From IMG/VR virus record IMGVR_UViG_3300025889_001153, positions 1-20,920 of that record: DNA of 20,920 nucleotides. One strand, 5' to 3'. Position 1 is the first letter of the stretch. Each line of letters starts with the position of its first letter. A program made the translations under genes and the position numbers. Shown here piece after piece: positions 726-18,998 of the stretch. Under the pieces are notes generated by a model, which did not search any database, had not been told where the DNA came from, and worked only from the letters and a program-made list of their open reading frames with translations. The stretch comes from a virus.

Positions 726-2141
726 ATGCTAAACTGGTTGAGAAAACTTATCCAGCCAACAACGCGGACCATCCGGCGGCCCGTTCGCGCACGTTATGAC
801 GCGGCGCAGACAACCGATGAGAATCAAAGGCACTGGGCGTACTCCGATTCACTTTCGGCCAAGTCGGCAAACACGCTTACAATCCGGCAAACACTACGCA
901 ACCGGGCCCGGTACGAGTTCGCTAACAATGGCTATTGTCACGGGCTCATTATTACCCTGGCGAATGACCTGATTGGCACAGGGCCGAGGTTGCAGGTACA
1001 AACCGACGACGCCGATTACAATCGGGCCGTCGAATTGGCCTGGAGCAACTGGACGGCGGCGGTCGGCCTGGTCGACAAATTGCACGTAATGACCCAGGCG
1101 AAAAAGCGGGACGGTGAAGCGTTTGCGGTTTTCGTCACAAACGAAACCTTACCAAACCCTGTCCAAATTGACCTTCGACTAGTCGAGTGCGATCAAGTGA
1201 CCACGCCTACAGGAATGCTACCGTCGATCAATGACGATGGGCTAGTATTTGACGCCTCGGGCAATGTCGTTGGCTTTCACGTGTTGCGGTTTCATCCCGG
1301 CGATACCTATTCCGGCACGTTGAATGAGTTTGACACGCTACCGGCCCGAAGTGTTATTCACTGGTTTCGGGCCGATCGGCCTGGTCAATTTCGCGGCGTT
1401 CCGGAAATCACGCCGAGCCTACCTTTATTCGGTCAACTTCGGCGGTATACCCTGGCGACCCTGACGGCCGCCGAAACCGCCGCCAACTTCGCCGCCGTTC
1501 TCGAATCACAGGCCCCGCCTGATGGCACAACCGAGGAACCGACCCCGTTTGAAACGCTCGAAATCGAGCGCGGCATGATGACCACGTTACCCGCCGGGGC
1601 CAAGTTGTCGCAGTTTGCCGCGCAACATCCAACAACTCTTTACCAGGAGTTCAAGCGCGAACTTCTCAAAGAAATCGGGCGGCCGTTGTCGGCCCCGTTC
1701 AACGTCATTTCCGGGGATAGTTCGCCTTACAACTATTCATCGGCCCGGCTGGATCATTTGCTCTATCGCCAGGCCCAGCGGGTCGAGCGGGACCATTGCC
1801 GGCGGATCGTACTTGAACGGGTCTTTCAAGCGTGGGTGGATGAGGCGCAAATGGTTCCGGGTCTGTTACCGTCCAGGCCCGGGACCAGCGCCGATTTGCC
1901 GCGCGATTGGATTTGGCCCGGGGCCGAGGCCATCGACCCAGAGAAGGAAGCAAAAGCCGACACGGAACGCCTGGGCAACAACACAACAACCCTGGCGGAG
2001 ATCCTTGCCGGGTACGGGCAAGACTGGGAAAGTTTTCTCCGGCAACGGGCCCGTGAACAACAACTGATTACTGAACTTGGACTAGGGAGCAGCAATGGCG
2101 CGACTAGCAGCCAAAATGCAGCCAATCAACCTAACGGCTGA
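726..2141 (+). CDS. phage portal protein, lambda (GpB) family
   Basis: 471 residues, close to the usual 480-530 of lambda-type portals. The N-terminus is basic (RKLIQPTTRTIRRPVRARYDAA). It is followed by the family signature region: R-R-RYEFANNGYCHGLI...LANDLIGTGPRLQ at about 57-90, then a core containing DGEAFAVF, LVECDQV and a QFRGVPEI stretch near 220. The C-terminal part includes GRPLSAPFNVISGDSSPYNYSSARLDHL, which is strongly conserved in this family, with FQAWVDEA after it. The protein forms the dodecameric ring at one capsid vertex, docks the terminase and guides DNA. It begins directly after the gpW-like stop, and its last 47 bases overlap the start of the protease-capsid fusion. High confidence. 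Confidence 0.93.
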   Translation: MLNWLRKLIQPTTRTIRRPVRARYDAAQTTDENQRHWAYSDSLSAKSANTLTIRQTLRNRARYEFANNGYCHGLIITLANDLIGTGPRLQVQTDDADYNRAVELAWSNWTAAVGLVDKLHVMTQAKKRDGEAFAVFVTNETLPNPVQIDLRLVECDQVTTPTGMLPSINDDGLVFDASGNVVGFHVLRFHPGDTYSGTLNEFDTLPARSVIHWFRADRPGQFRGVPEITPSLPLFGQLRRYTLATLTAAETAANFAAVLESQAPPDGTTEEPTPFETLEIERGMMTTLPAGAKLSQFAAQHPTTLYQEFKRELLKEIGRPLSAPFNVISGDSSPYNYSSARLDHLLYRQAQRVERDHCRRIVLERVFQAWVDEAQMVPGLLPSRPGTSADLPRDWIWPGAEAIDPEKEAKADTERLGNNTTTLAEILAGYGQDWESFLRQRAREQQLITELGLGSSNGATSSQNAANQPNG

Positions 2142-4188
2142 ATCGGTTGAAATGGATCTGGTCGCGGCCGCAACCGGGGCCGACGGCGGCCTTAAGCGGT
2201 TCACCATGACCGCCTACACCGGCGCGGCAATGCAGGTGGCGTATTATCAGCACCCTGTAGTGATCGACCTGGCGGGAATGAAGATCAAAGCTGCCAGGAA
2301 ACCAATTCTTAGGGACCATAACCCGGCGCAAATCGTAGGACACACGGACGCCGTTAGGGTCACGGATGGCCCGACGCAATCCCTGCAAGTTACCGGCGTC
2401 ATTTCCGGTACGGGGCCGGCGGCCCGGGAAGTCGTCGACCTGGCGGCGAACGGGTTTCCCTGGCAGGCGTCGGTAGGGGCCTCGGTCGATCGGATTGAAT
2501 TTGTTGAGCGGGGTCAATCGGCCAACGTCAACGGGCGATCTTTTTTCGGCCCGTTGTACGTCGCCCGAGCAACTGAACTCGGAGAAGTTTCCTTTGTACC
2601 TATCGGAGCGGACAACAACACCACGGCAAATGTTGCAGCACAACACAAAACCGGAGTAAACATGGAATTTGAAAAGTATTTACAGGGGGCCGGGTTTGAC
2701 CCCGACCAACTTACCGACACGCAACGGGCGTTACTTCACGCGGCTTTTCAAGCCGGTCATTCCAAGGCGCCGGCCCCGGTGGCAACGCCGGCCCCGGCGT
2801 CGTCGTTGGATGAAACCTTTGCCCGACTCAAAGCAGAAAAGGAACGTGAAGAACGCGTGGCCAGAACTTGCCAGGCCGCAATTCAGGCCGGGGCCAACAT
2901 CGAGGAAATCGAACGCCTCGGCCGGGCCGCCGTGGAAAATAATTGGGACCTTAACCGGGTCGAGCTTGAAGCGCTCCGGCTGACCAGGCCGGCCGCGTCA
3001 AGGTTTTCCGGTGGGGTGATCTCCCGGAGTTCCCGGGCGGCATCGCCCAAGGTGATCGAGGCCGCCGTGCTGTCCGCGGCCAGGTATGAACACCTTGAAC
3101 GGGACTATTCGCCCGAGGTACTGGAAGCCGCGAACGAGCAATGGCGTCACGGGCTCGGCCTGGGCGAACTTGTATTGACGTTCGCGCGGAAGAACGGCTA
3201 CCAGGGTTTAACCTTATCCGGTGGCCTGGCGTCGGCGTTGCGGTCGGCCTTTGAACCGCGAGATATGGATATTCGGGCCAGCATCGACGGGACCTCAAGC
3301 TATAGCATCAGCGGCATCCTGTCGAACGTCGCCAACAAGTTTTTACGGGTTGGTTTCGAGTCAGTCGAGCAATCCTGGCGACCCATTACCGCCATTCGGG
3401 CCGTCCGCGACTTCAAGCAAATTTCTAGCTATACGCTTACCGGAGCCATGGTTTATGAGAAGGTTGCACCGGGCGGGGAAATCAAACACGGTAGCCTGTC
3501 CGAGGAAACCTACACTAATAAGGCCGATACCTACGGCCGCATGATCGGCATCGACCGCCGGGACCTGATTAACGACGACCTGGGGGCCCTGTCCTCCGCC
3601 GGCCGTCGCCTGGGACGCGGCGGGGCTCTGAAACTGAATGACGTTTTCTGGACGGAGTGGCTGGACAACTCATCCTTCTTCACCTCGGGCAACGCGAACT
3701 ACATTTCGGGAGCCACGACCAATCTTTCCAGCGAAGGTATGCGGGCTGGCCTGGAGAAGTTCCGCAAACTGACCGACCCGGACGGTATGCCGATGGGCCA
3801 TACGCCGCGTTACCTGGTGGTTCCTCCGGAACTTGAAGTTATCGCCATGGAATTGTTCACGTCGACCAACTACAACACCGGCGGCGCCGCGACGACCGAG
3901 AAGGTTCCGAACCGAAACATTTTCGCCGGGAAATATCTTCCCGTTGTGAGCAATTACCTCAGCAACTCGAGCTATACCGGGTACAGCACGACGGCTTGGT
4001 ATTTGGTCGCCGACCCGGCCGACGTTCCGGTCATTGAAACCGTGTTTTTAAACGGCGTGGAGTCGCCTACGGTTGAAAGCGCCGAGGCGGAAATGAACCA
4101 ACTCGGAATATACCTTCGCGGTTACCATGACTTTGGCGTCAAGAAACAAGAAAAGCGCGGCGGCATCAAATCCAAGGGCGCGGCCTAA
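2095..4188 (+). CDS. prohead protease / scaffold / major capsid fusion (Mu gpT-like capsid domain)
   Basis: 697 residues, joining what are often separate genes. Residues about 10-185 look like an HK97-type prohead protease: DHNPAQIVG with His75, FPWQASVGA with Ser126, and ELGEVSFV near 161-168. Residues about 190-320 are helical and charged with an Ala/Pro linker, as expected for a scaffold or delta domain. Residues about 325-690 match Mu gpT-like capsid proteins (YGRMIGIDRRDLINDDLGAL, KLNDVFWTEWL, PRYLVVPPELE), an HK97-fold shell protein. The start lies inside the portal gene behind a GGGAG. An in-frame ATG at 2662 (Met190) has GGAG five bases upstream and would give a 508-residue scaffold-capsid product. 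The protease domain probably cuts itself and the scaffold during maturation. Confidence 0.88.
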   Translation: MARLAAKMQPINLTAESVEMDLVAAATGADGGLKRFTMTAYTGAAMQVAYYQHPVVIDLAGMKIKAARKPILRDHNPAQIVGHTDAVRVTDGPTQSLQVTGVISGTGPAAREVVDLAANGFPWQASVGASVDRIEFVERGQSANVNGRSFFGPLYVARATELGEVSFVPIGADNNTTANVAAQHKTGVNMEFEKYLQGAGFDPDQLTDTQRALLHAAFQAGHSKAPAPVATPAPASSLDETFARLKAEKEREERVARTCQAAIQAGANIEEIERLGRAAVENNWDLNRVELEALRLTRPAASRFSGGVISRSSRAASPKVIEAAVLSAARYEHLERDYSPEVLEAANEQWRHGLGLGELVLTFARKNGYQGLTLSGGLASALRSAFEPRDMDIRASIDGTSSYSISGILSNVANKFLRVGFESVEQSWRPITAIRAVRDFKQISSYTLTGAMVYEKVAPGGEIKHGSLSEETYTNKADTYGRMIGIDRRDLINDDLGALSSAGRRLGRGGALKLNDVFWTEWLDNSSFFTSGNANYISGATTNLSSEGMRAGLEKFRKLTDPDGMPMGHTPRYLVVPPELEVIAMELFTSTNYNTGGAATTEKVPNRNIFAGKYLPVVSNYLSNSSYTGYSTTAWYLVADPADVPVIETVFLNGVESPTVESAEAEMNQLGIYLRGYHDFGVKKQEKRGGIKSKGAA
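2652..2664 (+). promoter_or_regulatory. internal ribosome-binding site and in-frame ATG (nested capsid start)
   Basis: GGAG lies at about 2653-2656, five or six bases before ATG 2662, in the same frame as the protease-capsid fusion. The start falls exactly at the border between the protease domain and the scaffold-like region. Lambda C/Nu3 uses the same kind of nested start to make scaffold in excess. Use of this start is inferred from position and spacing only. Confidence 0.5.
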
Positions 4189-12041: not shown

Positions 12042-12814
12042 TGTTACGGCGTCATTTACTGGTTCCAACCCCGTTCAACCCGTTGCATTTTGCTCCCGCC
12101 CTCTGGCTCGACGCCAGCGACCAGGCCACGCTGTACCAGGATCGCACCGGCGCATCAGCTACAACGCTGGTATCGGCAGATTCAGATCCTATCGGGACGT
12201 GGAAAGACAAATCAGGCAACGCACGGCATGTTACAGCATCCAGCGACTCGAAAAGACCGACGTACAAGGTGGCTACACATAACGGTAGGTCATCTATTTA
12301 TTTTGACGGGGTAAATGACAATTTTATTGTCACTTCTTCGATTCTAAGCGGTTTGTCAGGATACAGTATATTCATGGTGCGGCAATGGGAAGTTCCAGGG
12401 GCGGCGGCGGCTAATTTAGCCGGGTCCAATAACATCTTGGAATATGTAACGGTTTCGGCTGGATCAGTTACGGGGCGCAGAAGTTATATCAGCGCGGGGA
12501 ATTATGGCTCGACCGCAACTTTATCACTTAGTTCAAGTGTTATTTCTATGATCTATGACGGAACCAAAAGCAATAATTCCACTAGACTTGTGAGACGAAC
12601 GGACGGGACGCAGGATACTTTAACCTTTACAGGAACCATACCGGCTACGTCTGACACTCATACTAGTATCACGATAGGATCATTGACCGACGCCGCCAGT
12701 TGGTTCAAAGGGTACATACTTGAAATTGTCGTCCTCACATCGACGGCAACTACTGACAAAATAAGCCAAATGGAACGCTATCTCGGGAATAAATGGGGGA
12801 TCACTCTTTTATGA
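12041..12814 (+). CDS. LamG/concanavalin-like phage protein, candidate receptor-binding protein
   Basis: 257 residues from ATG 12041, overlapping the previous TAA. It begins with PFNPLHFAPALWLDASDQATLYQD, then IGTWKDKSGNARHVTAS and SSIYFDGVNDNF, a hallmark order of LamG-type jelly-roll domains in phage and secreted proteins. Later strands include YSIFMVRQW, SSSVISMIYDG and ITIGSLTDAASWFKGYILEIVVL, ending with a helix (ISQMERYLGNKWGI). Such domains bind glycans, so host-surface recognition is likely. The second half of the gene is AT-richer than its surroundings, consistent with exchange of host-range modules. The stop overlaps the next start as ATGA. Confidence 0.6.
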   Translation: MLRRHLLVPTPFNPLHFAPALWLDASDQATLYQDRTGASATTLVSADSDPIGTWKDKSGNARHVTASSDSKRPTYKVATHNGRSSIYFDGVNDNFIVTSSILSGLSGYSIFMVRQWEVPGAAAANLAGSNNILEYVTVSAGSVTGRRSYISAGNYGSTATLSLSSSVISMIYDGTKSNNSTRLVRRTDGTQDTLTFTGTIPATSDTHTSITIGSLTDAASWFKGYILEIVVLTSTATTDKISQMERYLGNKWGITLL

Positions 12815-13610: not shown

Positions 13611-14105
13611 GTGACGAATGGCATGATTGCTGGATCACTGTCAGCGGTCGCAGGAAGCCTCTTTTGTGTTTCCTATCGGTCTGCGTTAACTCTTGTCGCA
13701 CAGGCCGAAGGCCCGCCCGGAGTCAACCGACTTACCGAGTTTGGCCTTGCTGGTTCACTTATGGCGGTGATTGTGTACATAGTTTATCTGCTTCTGAATC
13801 GAACACTGACGGGGCGGGAAACAGACCTGGCGTGGCATCGAGACGAGATGGCTAGACGAACTACTCTGTTTCAAAGTGTCATCGATGACACAAACAAGTT
13901 GCATGAGAAAAACATTGCTCATTTGAGTGACCGAATGACAGCGTCACTGGAAAAGATCGATGCCAGGCTAGGGTCCAGAACAGAAGATATTCTGAAGATC
14001 CTCGAAGCGATGCGAAGTGTGAACATGGTGATGGAAGGCGTCAAGGATATGCTGTCTTATTGTCGAGACGTACAAATTGCAAAAGGGCATACCGACAAGG
14101 ATTAA
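13611..14105 (+). CDS. membrane protein with C-terminal coiled coil, holin candidate
   Basis: 164 residues from GTG 13611, supported by a strong GGGGGTG ribosome-binding site seven bases or so upstream, which favours GTG over the internal ATG. A weakly hydrophobic N-terminal stretch (about 4-30) is followed by a clear transmembrane segment FGLAGSLMAVIVYIVYLLL (about 44-62), then a long charged helix with coiled-coil pattern (73-150). One or two membrane segments immediately before a secreted-type peptidase gene fit a holin or membrane anchor of a lysis cassette, but I see no holin family signature. A tail-associated membrane factor is the alternative. Confidence 0.5.
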   Translation: MTNGMIAGSLSAVAGSLFCVSYRSALTLVAQAEGPPGVNRLTEFGLAGSLMAVIVYIVYLLLNRTLTGRETDLAWHRDEMARRTTLFQSVIDDTNKLHEKNIAHLSDRMTASLEKIDARLGSRTEDILKILEAMRSVNMVMEGVKDMLSYCRDVQIAKGHTDKD

Positions 14106-14124: not shown

Positions 14125-14778
14125 ATGTTTGAACTAATGTTATTGGCCCTCCTGGGCAATCGGCCGGCTATCAAGGCCGAAAAAACCTATGAACCCTATA
14201 AATTGGTTCGCCTGGCGGCCGAAAACGTACCATCAAAGGCCGGCGTGGTCTGGAGGGTACGCCCAGGCCGCGACGTTGAAAAGTCAAGCCAACCCGACCG
14301 CACCAAACTGGAGTTTGTCGCCCCGCCGGGAACATACGACGTGGAAATTCTGGTCGTCACGGTTGCAACCGACGGCCAGGTTCAAATTGATGAATCAACC
14401 ACGACGATAACGATAGGTTCCAAGCAACCCGACCCGCCAGGCCCTGGCGACCCGTTGGCCGAGGCGTTGCGCGGGATTTATGGCGGCCTTCAGGATTCCG
14501 ACAAGGTAACTAAGGTCGCCGCCCTGGCGAAGGCGCACAAGCGCGGCCTGGAGCTTCTGGCCGACCCCGCAACGCAAACCGTCGGGCAACTCTATCAGGG
14601 TATGCGCGCGGCATCGACTCTGAATCCAAGCGATATCAAACCGATCCGCGACCGTATCGCGGAGGAATATACCCACGCGTTACCGACCGAAACTGAAACC
14701 GTTCTTTCATCCGAGCAGCGTTCGGCCGCCGCCAAACTATTCGGTCGGGTTGTTTCCATCTTGGAGGGCCTGAAATGA
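14125..14778 (+). CDS. hypothetical protein with possible Ig-like N-terminal domain
   Basis: 217 residues, with a good AGGAG ribosome-binding site before ATG 14125. It begins with a short hydrophobic run (MFELMLLALLG) that may be an uncleaved or weak signal. Residues about 20-98 are beta-rich with KAGVVWRVRPG and KLEFVAPPGTYDVEILVV, resembling an Ig/PKD-like fold, then a Pro-rich linker (KQPDPPGPGDP) and a helical C-terminal half (LAEALRGIYGG to the end). Its stop overlaps the peptidase start (ATGA), so the two are translationally coupled. It may be a partner or carrier for the peptidase; the function is unknown. Confidence 0.45.
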   Translation: MFELMLLALLGNRPAIKAEKTYEPYKLVRLAAENVPSKAGVVWRVRPGRDVEKSSQPDRTKLEFVAPPGTYDVEILVVTVATDGQVQIDESTTTITIGSKQPDPPGPGDPLAEALRGIYGGLQDSDKVTKVAALAKAHKRGLELLADPATQTVGQLYQGMRAASTLNPSDIKPIRDRIAEEYTHALPTETETVLSSEQRSAAAKLFGRVVSILEGLK

Positions 14779-15665
14779 GTTCCCCATACGTGCCCGGTTG
14801 GGAATACCTTCCCCATGAAGTCGAGGTGGTGCGCGCCGCGCAAGTATACCCGAATTTTGCAATGACTCCGGCCGCGCAATCGGCCGCGGATCTACCGGCG
14901 GAAGCTTTTTTGTGGAAAGCCTACGAGAAAGTCACCGGCAAAAAATGGCCATCGAGGAATCAGGGTTCCGTAGGGTCCTGTGTAAGTTTTGGCACGGCGG
15001 CCGCGATCGAGGCGACGATGGCGGTCGAGGTAATGATGGGAGAGCCGGAGGAAATCCGGGACCTGGTGCAAGAAGTCATTTACGGCGGTTCCCGGGTCGA
15101 GGTTGGCGGCGGGCGTATCGGCGGCGATGGGTCGGTAGGGGCCTGGGCGGCGGAGTTTGTTCGCCGGTGGGGCATCATCGACCGAGGCGTTCACGGTCGA
15201 TATGACCTGTCGTCGTACTCGGAGCGGACCTGTCGGGCCTGGGGTGACTCGGGAGTTCCCGACGACCTGGAGCCCGTTGTCAAAAAATATCCGGTCAAAT
15301 TCACAACCCAGGTAACCAACTGGAAGTCGGCAAAGGATGCACTGGCGAACGGGTACGGTATCGCCATTTGCAGCAACCAGGGATTCACCATGCAGCGGGA
15401 CGCCGATGGTTTTGCCAGGCCGAGTGGCTCATGGGCTCACTGTATGGCGCTAATCGGGTATCAAACGGGAAACCGGGAGGGAGGGTTTATTTGTAATTCA
15501 TGGGGGCCCTCGGCCCATACGGGGCCTGGCGGCCTGGGCGAACCGCCGCCGTGCGGGTTTTGGGCCGACGCCAAAGTCGTCGACGGGATGCTAGGCCAGG
15601 ATGATTCATGGGCTTTTAGCGGGGTCGGGGGGTTCCCGGCGCGCAAGATTAACTGGTTTATATAG
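14775..15665 (+). CDS. papain-like (C1) cysteine peptidase
   Basis: 296 residues. NQGSVGSCVSFG at 62-73 matches the papain active-site segment NQGxCGSCWAF: Gln63 (oxyanion hole) and Cys69 nucleophile, six apart as in papain. GSWAHCMALIGY supplies His222 and ICNSWGP supplies Asn241, so the whole catalytic set is present. There is no evident signal peptide and no long inhibitory prodomain; about 60 residues precede Gln63. It is coupled by ATGA to the preceding protein and follows a holin-like membrane protein, so it takes the place where an endolysin is expected. No amidase, lysozyme or transglycosylase is seen in the window. It could also act in head or tail maturation. The family call is firm; the biological role is inferred. 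Confidence 0.8.
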   Translation: MSSPYVPGWEYLPHEVEVVRAAQVYPNFAMTPAAQSAADLPAEAFLWKAYEKVTGKKWPSRNQGSVGSCVSFGTAAAIEATMAVEVMMGEPEEIRDLVQEVIYGGSRVEVGGGRIGGDGSVGAWAAEFVRRWGIIDRGVHGRYDLSSYSERTCRAWGDSGVPDDLEPVVKKYPVKFTTQVTNWKSAKDALANGYGIAICSNQGFTMQRDADGFARPSGSWAHCMALIGYQTGNREGGFICNSWGPSAHTGPGGLGEPPPCGFWADAKVVDGMLGQDDSWAFSGVGGFPARKINWFI

Positions 15666-16228: not shown

Positions 16229-16265
16229 CGTTAACAGCTATAACGACGCGGTCGCGTCGGATGCG

Positions 16266-16296
16266 GGCCCCGGGGGTTTTCCTCGGGGCCTTTTTT
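16266..16296 (+). terminator. intrinsic terminator ending the late operon
   Basis: GGCCCCGG (16266-16273) pairs with TCGGGGCC (16283-16290) around a nine-base loop, followed by six T residues (16291-16296). It lies 38 bp after the last late gene and faces the direction of transcription, so it should insulate the attachment/integrase region from late transcription. Confidence 0.85.
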
Positions 16297-16305
16297 GTTG
16301 GCAGT

Positions 16306-16325
16306 ATACCGGGTAAATACCGGGT
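16306..16325 (+). repeat. two phased direct repeats ATACCGGGT, candidate integrase arm sites
   Basis: ATACCGGGT occurs at 16306-16314 and again at 16317-16325, eleven bases apart (one helical turn). The same TACCGGG word recurs as a palindrome on the other side of the tRNA-like core (16593-16609). Repeats of this kind on both sides of an att core resemble arm-type binding sites of lambda-like integrases. In GC-rich DNA the word is not rare, so this is suggestive only. Confidence 0.4.
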
Positions 16326-16471
16326 TGGGTGGCCGCGAATGACCGCCTATGGCCGACGACAACTGGACACGGTTGGTCCGTGGTTGTATACTTTTTTCCA
16401 AGCAATATAAGTGCGCCGACGGTATCTGCGCCATATTGCAACCCAAGCTAGTAGAAGGTTAATACCCTGGG

Positions 16472-16513
16472 TTCCTAAACCGAGGGTCACAGGTTCAAAT
16501 CCTGTCGGGGGTA
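16472..16513 (+). other. candidate attP core: 3' half of a tRNA-Arg(CCU)-like gene
   Basis: The stretch reads as the second half of a tRNA: anticodon loop TTCCTAA (16472-16478, anticodon CCT), 3' anticodon stem ACCGA, variable region GGGTC, T stem ACAGG (16489-16493), T loop TTCAAAT, CCTGT (16501-16505), acceptor strand CGGGGGT and discriminator A at 16513. The five bases before the loop (CTGGG) do not pair with ACCGA, and no D arm or 5' acceptor strand (ACCCCCG) is found upstream, so this is not a complete tRNA. Homology that begins exactly at the 7-base anticodon loop is the usual form of a phage attP for tyrosine integrases, and the integrase gene lies 115 bp downstream. Confidence 0.7.
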
Positions 16514-16531
16514 ATCGACGTAAGTCGAACA

Positions 16532-16564
16532 CTTCTAACGCCTTCTAATCGTCTTCTATAGAAG
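16532..16564 (+). promoter_or_regulatory. 33-bp phased operator-like element upstream of int (copy 1)
   Basis: CTTCTA occurs at 16532 and 16542 and is followed at 16553 by the 12-bp palindrome CTTCTATAGAAG. The spacing of 10 and 11 bp puts all three boxes on one face of the helix. A second copy with the same spacing lies at 18156-18188, with 29 of 33 bases identical by my alignment. It sits between the att core and integrase, so it may bind a repressor, an excisionase or the integrase itself. Confidence 0.7.
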
Positions 16565-16592
16565 CTGCTAGCATGGGTGAACCCAGTCGAAA

Positions 16593-16609
16593 CCCGGTAG
16601 ACTACCGGG
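16593..16609. repeat. perfect palindrome CCCGGTAG-A-CTACCGGG before int
   Basis: Two 8-bp arms with one central base, 18 bp before the integrase ATG. It contains the TACCGGG word in both orientations, matching the direct repeats at 16306-16325. It may be an int operator or an arm-type site; overlap with the integrase ribosome-binding region (AGGGGA) would allow control of int. Confidence 0.5.
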
Positions 16610-16627
16610 GAAAAAAAGGGGAACACC

Positions 16628-17686
16628 ATGCCAAGGGGAAATCCGAGTTATCGGCATCACAGGCCGAGCGGCCAGGCCGTCGTGACCCTGAACGGGCGCG
16701 ACTTTTACTTAGGACCGTGGAATTCGCCGGAAAGTCATGCCCGGTATGCCGCGGCGATGCGATCTTACCGCGAAGGTCGACCCGTCGAGGCGATCGCCGG
16801 CCCGGCCGGAATGACGGTGGCCGAGGCGGTCGTTGTCTATTGCGACCATGCCCGGAGATATTACCGGGATGACCGGGGAATTGATACCAGGCAATTCCCG
16901 CGCATACGCCGGGCGCTTGGAACCCTGGTAGAACTCTATGCCTCGGTCGCCCTGGCGGACGTTGGCGCCCGGGAACTCCGGGACGTCCAGGGTCGATGGG
17001 TCGCCCAGGGCCTCGGCCGAACCTATGCCAATCATTTATTGGTGGCAACAAAGACCGCGTTTAAATGGTTGGCCCGGGAAGGGTATTACCCGCCTAATAA
17101 GTGGGTCGAAATCCAACTGGTCGCCGGCCTGAAAGTCGGGCGGACCGAGGCCCCTGAATCGACGCCGACCGTTCCCGTTGCGGAAAAGGATCTCGAGGCG
17201 ACCCGGCCGCACATGCCGGAAGTCATCGCGGCGATGGTCGACTTCCAACTACTCACCGGGGCCCGAACCGGGGAAGTCGTCGGGTTGACCTGGGAGCAAA
17301 TCGACCGATCCGGGGCCGTCTGGGTTTACCGGCCGGCCAGGCATAAGAACAAATGGCGAGGGCAACCGCGGGAAATCATGATCGGCCCGAAGGCCCAGGC
17401 CGTTATATTTGGCCGGCAATCTATTTCCGGGCCCGTGTTTCAGCATGGCGGCGGGCCTTACACGGTTCAGGCTTATGCGAAGGCCATCGCCCGGATATGC
17501 CGCCGGGCCGGGGTTCCGGTTTGGCGGCCAGGCCAGCTGCGACACAATGCCGCAACCCGGATTCAAGGGGAACTAGGTTGGGACGTCGCCCGGGCTGTTC
17601 TTGGTCACCGAACCGTTGAAACAACGCGAATATATGCCGACCGCGACGCGGCGGCGGCGGCCGAAGCGGCGCGACGCCTGGGGTAA
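16628..17686 (+). CDS. int: tyrosine-family site-specific integrase
   Basis: 352 residues, AGGGGA ahead of the ATG. Residues about 60-150 are the SAM-like core-binding domain (VAEAVVVYCDHARRYY to TKTAFKWLAREGY). The catalytic domain has TGARTGEVVGLTW (Arg213), the HKNKWRGQPREIMI strand (Lys240 or Lys242), GQLRHNAAT (Arg305), LGHRTVETT (His327) and the nucleophile Tyr336 in IYADRD. The first His of the usual HxxR box is Gly302, a variant I have seen as Asn in related planctomycete phage integrases (PNQLRH). It should recombine the adjacent tRNA-half attP with a host tRNA gene. Its N-terminal 50 residues could be the arm-binding part. Confidence 0.92.
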   Translation: MPRGNPSYRHHRPSGQAVVTLNGRDFYLGPWNSPESHARYAAAMRSYREGRPVEAIAGPAGMTVAEAVVVYCDHARRYYRDDRGIDTRQFPRIRRALGTLVELYASVALADVGARELRDVQGRWVAQGLGRTYANHLLVATKTAFKWLAREGYYPPNKWVEIQLVAGLKVGRTEAPESTPTVPVAEKDLEATRPHMPEVIAAMVDFQLLTGARTGEVVGLTWEQIDRSGAVWVYRPARHKNKWRGQPREIMIGPKAQAVIFGRQSISGPVFQHGGGPYTVQAYAKAIARICRRAGVPVWRPGQLRHNAATRIQGELGWDVARAVLGHRTVETTRIYADRDAAAAAEAARRLG

Positions 17687-17695
17687 GAGAAAAAC

Positions 17696-17715
17696 TTGGA
17701 AGACATTGGAAGACA
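17696..17715 (+). repeat. 10-bp tandem repeat upstream of the regulator promoter
   Basis: TTGGAAGACA is repeated exactly twice without a gap (17696-17705, 17706-17715), just after the integrase stop and 15 bp upstream of the putative -35 box at 17731. Two identical boxes on one helix face next to a promoter suggest a regulator binding site. Confidence 0.5.
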
Positions 17716-17730
17716 ATAGCGCCACCCACA

Positions 17731-17758
17731 TTGACCGCGTAATTACTCGGATTACTAT
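17731..17758 (+). promoter_or_regulatory. putative sigma70-type promoter for the winged-helix regulator
   Basis: TTGACC (17731-17736) and TACTAT (17753-17758) are separated by 16 bp, one less than the ideal 17. Transcription would start near 17765, about 20 bp before the ATG at 17785, with AAAGGAAGG as ribosome-binding site. Also seen here are two ATTACT words (17742 and 17751) that may belong to an operator. Confidence 0.55.
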
Positions 17759-17784
17759 AGGTTCGTCAGTTAAAGGAAGGAAAA

Positions 17785-18162
17785 ATGACGACCAAAACTT
17801 ATACCCGCTTGCAATCACTTGCCGCTCGCGCCCTTGCCGAAGTTTTCTTCAATGGTGGATTGAGCGAAGACGTTTTCATTACCTGTGCAGAATCCGCCGG
17901 GGTTCGCGCCGAAATCCGAATAACCCGGACCAAGACCCTGACCGATTGCGAACGCGACCTACTCCAATTGCTATGCGGCCAGTCGGGTCCACGGACGCAA
18001 CCGGAAATTTTCGCCGACGTCGACCAGGCCGGGATTATTCACGGCGAATCGACCATGCGGAACGCCCTGGCAGCACTCCGCAAGCGTTCCCTGGTCGAGG
18101 TCGGAGCTCGGGGCGGATTTCGGATAACCGCCATGGGCGAAGAAATGGTCAGGGCCTTCTAA
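17785..18162 (+). CDS. winged-helix DNA-binding regulator
   Basis: 125 residues, with an excellent AAGGAAGG before the ATG. The C-terminal half looks like a winged helix: DCERDLLQLLCG, EIFADVDQAG, then TMRNALAALRKRSLVEV (recognition helix region, about 92-108) and a wing GARGGFRITAMGEEMV. The N-terminal 45 residues (LQSLAARALAEVF..) are probably a small helical part. Its promoter region carries tandem repeats, and the first CTTCTA box of the second 33-bp operator overlaps its stop codon. As the first gene of the early region after int it is a fair candidate for the lysogeny or early-gene regulator. There is no peptidase domain of the CI type. Confidence 0.6.
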   Translation: MTTKTYTRLQSLAARALAEVFFNGGLSEDVFITCAESAGVRAEIRITRTKTLTDCERDLLQLLCGQSGPRTQPEIFADVDQAGIIHGESTMRNALAALRKRSLVEVGARGGFRITAMGEEMVRAF

Positions 18163-18188
18163 CGTCTTCTAAGTGACTTCTATAGAAG
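18156..18188 (+). promoter_or_regulatory. 33-bp phased operator-like element upstream of the xis-like gene (copy 2)
   Basis: CTTCTA at 18156 and 18166 and the palindrome CTTCTATAGAAG at 18177-18188, the same 10 and 11 bp spacing as copy 1 at 16532. Only the spacer bases differ. A TATATT at 18194 may be a -10 box, though I find no good -35 partner. The element sits 45 bp before the xis-like ATG. Confidence 0.7.
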
Positions 18189-18232: not shown

Positions 18233-18538
18233 ATGAAACCTGACCAGTTAATTCCTCTGACGATGGCGGCCGACCTTTTGGTTAGCCGCCTGGGAAAGAA
18301 ACCAAGCCGCCGAACCTTACGCCGTTGGGCGACCGAGGGGCGCGACGGCCACAAAATACGCGTCATTCGCCTGGGGCCAACATGGTGGACCCGGCCGGAA
18401 TGGGTCGCGGAGTTTATCCGCGATCTTTCAACGACCAGGCCGGCGGCCGAGGCCGGGCCTAAGCGGGCCCGGGTCACAAGGGCTCTCGCCGCACTGAAAC
18501 AAATGGGAATCGGTAAGGAAACATCCCGCCCGGGATGA
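18233..18538 (+). CDS. DUF1580-like / excisionase-like helix-turn-helix protein
   Basis: 101 residues. Residues 8-60 have the MerR/excisionase winged-helix layout: LTMAADLLVSRLG, SRRTLRRWATEG (recognition helix), then IRVIRLGPTWWTRPEWVAEFI, in which a strand, a Trp and a final helix give the wing. The same order (LT-AA-LLP--G--VS--TLWRW--KG...R--R-G--W-T) defines DUF1580 proteins abundant in Planctomycetes. A basic Ala-rich tail follows. Its upstream 33-bp element is also found before int, so it may be the excisionase (recombination directionality factor) or an autoregulator. A GGGG lies a few bases before the ATG. Confidence 0.65.
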   Translation: MKPDQLIPLTMAADLLVSRLGKKPSRRTLRRWATEGRDGHKIRVIRLGPTWWTRPEWVAEFIRDLSTTRPAAEAGPKRARVTRALAALKQMGIGKETSRPG

Positions 18539-18614: not shown

Positions 18615-18998
18615 ATGAAAGAAAGAATACGCGGTTTGCTCATTAACAATGGTCCGGGAACGGCGGCCCAGGTGGCAACCTGGCTAGGCGTCCCGGTCGG
18701 TAGGGCCGCTACCATGGCCGACGCGTTAACTGAACGCGGCGACCTCCGCCGCGATTTGGTGCAAGAGGGCCGAACGAGTTATTACCTTTACTCGGTTTCG
18801 AAGACGCCGGCCCCGGAACAATCCCGGTTGTGTATTACCAGGCGCGTAGGTCAATCGGTGGTGTTACAGTTGCCGGACGGTCGGGAAATGACCGTCTACC
18901 TCAGCGAGATTCGGACGGGAGACGCCCGGTTACATTTCATGGGGCCCAAAGACGTCAAGATATACCGCGATGAACTTCTTACCGGGGTACGCGGATGA
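18615..18998 (+). CDS. winged helix-CsrA domain fusion protein
   Basis: 127 residues with a very strong AGGAGGGG ribosome-binding site. Residues about 1-60 form a small helix-turn-helix/winged domain (RIRGLLINNGPGTAAQVATWLG, ADALTERGDLRRDL, SYYLYSV). Residues 71-124 match CsrA: RLCITRRVGQSV aligns with LILTRRVGET, putting Arg76 and Arg77 at CsrA Arg6 and Arg7, and PKDVKIYRDEL aligns with PKEVAVHREEI, putting Arg118 at the RNA-contacting Arg44. CsrA dimers bind GGA in mRNA leaders and control translation or decay. Normal CsrA is about 60 residues and starts at the first strand, so an N-terminal DNA-binding module is unusual. The leader is structured and GGA-rich. Its stop overlaps the next ATG. 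Confidence 0.75.
   Translation: MKERIRGLLINNGPGTAAQVATWLGVPVGRAATMADALTERGDLRRDLVQEGRTSYYLYSVSKTPAPEQSRLCITRRVGQSVVLQLPDGREMTVYLSEIRTGDARLHFMGPKDVKIYRDELLTGVRG

Follow-up and report, generated by a model that had tools for sequence, protein, structure and literature searches.

Why should a temperate phage carry the same compound site twice, once ahead of its integrase gene and once ahead of a gene for a small, possibly excisionase-like protein, and which protein would bind there? The window that raises this question is a whole IMG/VR virus record of 20,920 bases, and its initial annotation had proposed that a single protein controls both genes, tying integration to excision.

Sequence and conservation of the twin arrays

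Copy 1 (16532-16564, plus strand, CTTCTAACGCCTTCTAATCGTCTTCTATAGAAG) and copy 2 (18156-18188, plus strand, CTTCTAACGTCTTCTAAGTGACTTCTATAGAAG) share the pattern CTTCTA-N4-CTTCTA-N5-CTTCTATAGAAG. The CTTCTA hexamers start at 16532, 16542 and 16553 in the former and at 18156, 18166 and 18177 in the latter, i.e. in both copies they are direct repeats spaced by 10 and 11 bp from start to start, about one turn of the helix. In each array the inverted hexamer TAGAAG abuts the third CTTCTA, and the two form at the end of the array the perfect 12-bp palindrome CTTCTATAGAAG; its half-sites are 6 bp apart, which places the inverted fourth half-site on nearly the opposite face of the helix from the third. 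The copies are identical at 29 of the 33 positions, and all four mismatches fall within the nine spacer bases. The arrays, their coordinates, their spacing and the restriction of the differences to the spacers had thus been described correctly to the base in the initial annotation.

That annotation had also called for a search for further copies, since many scattered ones would speak against a regulatory role. The full pattern occurs exactly twice in the 20.9-kb record, even with three mismatches allowed, and is not scattered. As these two copies are the only ones, and as both lie in the int/excision region, the idea of a dual control is partly supported. The architecture itself, with three phased copies of a hexamer and an abutting inverted half, was sought for hexamers of every sequence and appeared in none of 300 dinucleotide shuffles, and a triple phased hexamer of any sequence at spacings of 9-12, with the palindrome left aside, appeared on average 0.05 times per shuffle. 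The arrays are AT-rich, with 36-39% GC against 55% for the genome.

A comparison with relatives, likewise proposed beforehand, was made with the sole relative used, the IMG/VR contig L003 (14,430 bp, about 86% identical), which keeps both arrays at the two orthologous places (copy 1 at 12128-12160, copy 2 at 13751-13783). Over both pairs of arrays none of the 48 motif bases has changed, against 5 of the 18 spacer bases (Fisher p 0.001), and at the local divergence of 14.5% the probability of finding no change in 48 bases is 5e-4. From these alignments it follows that the CTTCTA hexamers are under selection, the stop codon of the preceding gene also constraining part of the first hexamer of copy 2.

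Position of the arrays and the probable attachment site

The gene int (16628-17686, plus strand) encodes a tyrosine recombinase of 352 aa, whose catalytic domain matches Pfam PF00589 (Phage_integrase) at 3.6e-14, above the cut-off, and phrog_1 at 6.8e-34. Copy 1 ends 63 bp ahead of the int ATG, and the distance from its start to the middle of a probable attP core is about 57 bp; the copy, lying between this core and int, occupies the int-side arm of the probable attP, upstream of int.

The core region is a tRNA-like sequence (16441-16513, plus strand), called by ARAGORN both in the window and in L003, with a degenerate 5' half and a good 3' half that ends 115 bp ahead of int. Rfam RF00005 matches it at 16449-16505 with 29.7 bits, just over the threshold, and the counterpart in L003 stays below it. 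Around the anticodon loop there is an inverted repeat with 10-bp arms, ACCCTGGGTT-CCTA-AACCGAGGGT (16464-16487), which is a candidate for the core-type integrase sites and the crossover region and belongs to a block of 67 bp (16461-16527) identical in L003. A tRNA-like sequence with an inverted repeat at the anticodon loop is the typical appearance of an attP core for tyrosine integrases. We infer that it is the probable attP core here too, and we would expect to find the same sequence, over 16472-16513, in the 3' half of a host tRNA gene, predicted to be one for Arg with anticodon CCT; among the genome contigs scanned no host match, hence no attB, was found, and in the viral contigs L003 alone carries it.

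The stop codon of gene 17785 (TAA at 18160-18162) lies within copy 2, and from the end of the copy to the ATG of gene 18233 there are 45 bp (44 intervening bases). The order on the same strand is int, 17785, copy 2, 18233 and further genes, and copy 2 sits 1.6 kb outside any att site.

A scan with the sigma-70 consensus, in the window and in L003, gave no good promoter at either array. Two sigma-70-like sites recur elsewhere in both phages, as consensus matches only and in numbers not above those of shuffles: TGGACA-17-TATACT (16364-16392, plus strand) on the P side of the core, directed towards int and the same in L003 (10/12), and TTGACC-16-TACTAT (17731-17758, plus strand) before 17785, found at the same place in L003. 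If the former is a real promoter, int would be transcribed in the circular phage from across attP, a connection that integration would sever. Further upstream, a terminator-like hairpin of the intrinsic type (16265-16291, plus strand), conserved in L003, closes the late gene block ahead of attP.

Other small elements flank the core. The element CTAGCWTGGGT has a P-side copy (16441-16451, minus strand) and an int-side copy (16568-16578, plus strand), and in L003 it also follows copy 2 (at 13787), where the window has none. On the P side, TACCGGG forms a direct pair 11 bp apart (16307-16324, plus strand), and TACCGGG elements, like CTAGCWTGGGT, occur on both sides of the core. Both were considered as weak candidates for arm-type integrase sites and rejected as not clearly above chance, the statistics of the TACCGGG pair being weak and an 11-mer match arising in 23% of arm shuffles; a CTTCCA pair at 17697-17712 was dropped since it is not kept in L003. 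In the int leader, on the int side of the core, stands the inverted pair ACCCGGTAGACTACCGGG (16592-16609), containing the perfect palindrome CCCGGTAGACTACCGGG (16593-16609), which is identical in L003 and lies just ahead of the ribosome-binding region. It may be a leader hairpin, or else a pair of protein sites or arm-type sites, for which it is a weak candidate.

The genes beside copy 2

Gene 18233 (18233-18538, plus strand) encodes a protein of 101 aa that had been called DUF1580-like. Its match to DUF1580 has an E of 0.024, but the score, 14.7 bits, lies under the Pfam gathering cut-off of 24.4 bits, so that the protein is not assigned to this family. The description of the gene as excisionase-like stands in part: its product has a predicted MerR/excisionase fold and matches phrog_66 (“excisionase and transcriptional regulator”), weakly, at E 0.0068 (0.0039 for the L003 protein), but its family matches remain below the curated cut-offs. 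Its viral matches include annotated phage “Excise” and HTH proteins.

The AF2 model of the 18233 product, built on two sequences, reaches a pLDDT near 85 in residues 20-60, the winged-helix core. Foldseek against the PDB alone returned no significant match for it (E-values > 0.5). With VIA-align the Z scores were 6.3 for BldC, 5.7 for both RdfS and RacA, 5.6 for Pukovnik Xis, 5.5 for lambda Xis and 4.6 for the phage P2 DNA-binding protein 4lhf, which are moderate values, a Z below 8 possibly reflecting a common arrangement only. The top of the list of structural neighbours is nevertheless dominated by one superfamily, the MerR/excisionase winged helices. The model thus predicts a MerR/Xis-type winged-helix protein, a candidate recombination directionality factor (RDF) and autoregulator.

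Gene 17785 (17785-18162, plus strand), whose product had been proposed as a winged-helix protein and as another possible binder, encodes 125 aa and is 97% identical in L003. Weak Pfam matches to wHTH domains agree with the proposal, and the C-terminal half is possibly a winged helix; the AF2 model, on the other hand, has a mean pLDDT of 50, too poor for a fold search. We retain the protein as a candidate repressor. For both 18233 and 17785, as for the N-terminus of Int, sequence searches against solved structures gave nothing usable.

Comparison with known systems

The closest arrangement of sites is that of Apl of coliphage 186, grouped here with P2-like Cox. Apl has 6-bp direct repeats spaced by 10-11 bp both at att and in the interval separating pR from pL (PMC7498355); the repeats of the window stand at a probable attachment site and at a second place, just before 18233. 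Efficient binding of Apl requires three adjacent operators (PMC7498355). The differences are that the operators of Apl consist of five and of seven degenerate repeats, the seven lying between face-to-face promoters, whereas the present candidate operators have three mismatch-free repeats with an abutting inverted half-site.

RdfS of ICEMlSym-R7A binds attP directly upstream of intS as well as its own promoter PrdfS, activating intS and attenuating its own expression, so that the two are coordinated (PMC11963761). Gene 18233 resembles it as a candidate wHTH RDF with putative sites upstream of int, in a probable attP, and before its own gene; the fold is also among its nearest neighbours (Z 5.7, as given above). 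On the other hand, the sites of RdfS are without consensus, the protein has an extra N-terminal helix and its gene belongs to a conjugation operon. In KplE1, TorI represses intS from a group of sites next to the intS -35, and an arm site of the integrase overlaps the -10 (PMC2951348). The candidate RDF sites of the window similarly form a block near int inside the probable att region; but in KplE1 the sites of TorI and IntS have been placed on a known promoter, and here there is a second array, by the RDF-like gene. Finally BldC of Streptomyces, which is MerR-like, occupies direct repeats in a head-to-tail manner (PMC5859096). It is, like the predicted 18233 product, a small MerR-like wHTH protein, and its best structural match, but it is a chromosomal developmental regulator that uses 9-bp repeats and has no link with recombination.

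By analogy with these cases, the layout in the window may well be the same design as that of the Apl/Cox/RdfS-like RDFs, with dual operators at att and at a promoter. The case would add an operator that the attachment site shares with the excision gene, in a phage lineage for which the 50,697 phage records searched gave no DNA relative, and would support the idea that the coupling of att with the excision gene arises repeatedly.

Which protein would bind the arrays

We propose, with a probability of roughly one half, that a small winged-helix protein able to oligomerise, encoded most likely by 18233, uses both arrays as its operators and acts as RDF (excisionase) and as transcriptional regulator. 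The phased hexamers, the conservation of the motif, the position on an attP arm, the RDF-like fold predicted for 18233 and the precedents just described together favour this reading. Monomers of 18233 would line up head to tail on the CTTCTA hexamers, binding cooperatively with one monomer to each turn of the helix and bending the DNA. At copy 1 this bending of the int-side arm would favour excision, and the filament would at once alter the transcription of int; at copy 2 the protein would regulate its own gene and the early genes behind it. One small DNA-binding protein thus probably tunes int and the excisionase-like gene and aids the excision of the phage. The initial proposal of a single protein for both genes is supported in part: there are only two copies, both conserved in L003, the first is in a probable attP and the neighbouring gene has the predicted fold. 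The proposal also suggests, in concrete terms, what a DUF1580-like protein may do.

Several observations count against the RDF reading: the family matches of 18233 lie under the curated cut-offs, its structural Z scores are moderate and come from a model of two sequences, no good sigma-70 promoter was seen at either array, no host attB was found, and the last half-site is inverted. In addition, RDF operators tend towards degeneracy and low specificity, and here all the hexamers are identical in sequence across both arrays. Identical sites suit a specific domain, and such identity is more typical of arm-type sites, which brings in the integrase itself: an N-terminal domain of Int might bind the three tandem CTTCTA on the int-side arm, and Int at copy 2 might regulate 18233. 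We hold this explanation to be unlikely, though worth weighing. The tandem repeats of copy 1 start at a distance from the core centre that is as expected on one arm, the integrases of KplE1 and ICEMlSym bind their own att/promoter and exert repression there, and by eye residues 1-60 of Int seem to resemble a small beta-sheet DNA-binding domain. But the distance of copy 2 from any att site is hard to reconcile with arm sites; the other arm has a single CTTCTA (16452-16457, minus strand), which reads CTTCAT in L003; in the searches made, the N-terminus of Int matched no arm-domain family; and other weak motifs on both flanks of the core could be the arm sites instead.

A somewhat more doubtful explanation is that a lysogeny repressor, perhaps 17785 or the product of a gene beyond the fragment, uses the arrays as operators and silences int and the early genes jointly. 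The perfect palindrome CTTCTATAGAAG suits a symmetric dimer, both arrays stand ahead of genes that a repressor would silence, and 17785, with its weak winged-helix matches, adjoins copy 2. The 6 bp between the half-sites are however tighter than usual for a dimer reaching into two grooves, such a dimer needs no direct phased repeats, and 17785 is both of uncertain fold and without an array ahead of itself. Very improbable is an origin with no regulatory protein, copy 2 being the remnant of a local duplication of the att side or the sequence acting in RNA: in L003 the likeness between the two array places does extend over about 49 bp, including CTAGCATGGGTGA, a tail that copy 2 of the window lacks, and the leader RNAs slightly exceed their shuffles in folding stability (z -0.96 to -2.9), but conservation across all four copies is confined to the hexamers and leaves out the spacers, and the array forms no common RNA hairpin across the four leaders.

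The abutting inverted half-site is explained well by none of these readings, and a one-way filament does not need it. Within the RDF reading, an improbable refinement is that the operator is unusually strict and partly palindromic, and that on it three head-to-tail monomers are halted by one inverted monomer, which would fix the length and polarity of the filament at both sites. Known RDF filaments form on degenerate sites and are capable of spreading, so that a built-in end stop would be new; the identical repeated site makes such a model of filament length directly testable.

Wider searches and neighbouring genes

Among 50,697 phage records neither a DNA relative of the phage nor a relative of 18233 was found. 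Scans of viral contigs for relatives of Int, 18233 and gene 19360 gave L003 alone or nothing, and the genome contigs yielded none for Int. A loosened pattern of three CTTCTA was found in 17 other contigs, which were rejected as relatives, no link with int being seen where they were examined. In a freshwater phage group, small genes are closely preceded by three CTTCTA-type repeats (CTTCTAGGGG...), each about a helix turn from the next, in a context unrelated to the window, as at 6593-6625 of L010 and similarly in L007, L009, L012, L014-L018 and L020.

Downstream of 18233, a 127-aa ORF (18615-18998) combines an AlkZ-like HTH winged-helix segment (E 2e-7) with a CsrA domain (E 3e-7), and these domain matches make a regulator binding both DNA and RNA possible. 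The late gene block includes, from profile matches, portal, capsid-protease and papain-like peptidase genes. The peptidase, of the papain family of cysteine peptidases (Pfam C1, E 8e-6), is encoded at 14775-15665; a small ORF at 13281-13607 matches the IscB model at E 2e-6, below the cut-off, and is probably an HNH endonuclease; and at 2095-4188 a protease and the major capsid protein are fused in one ORF of 697 aa, which overlaps the portal gene.
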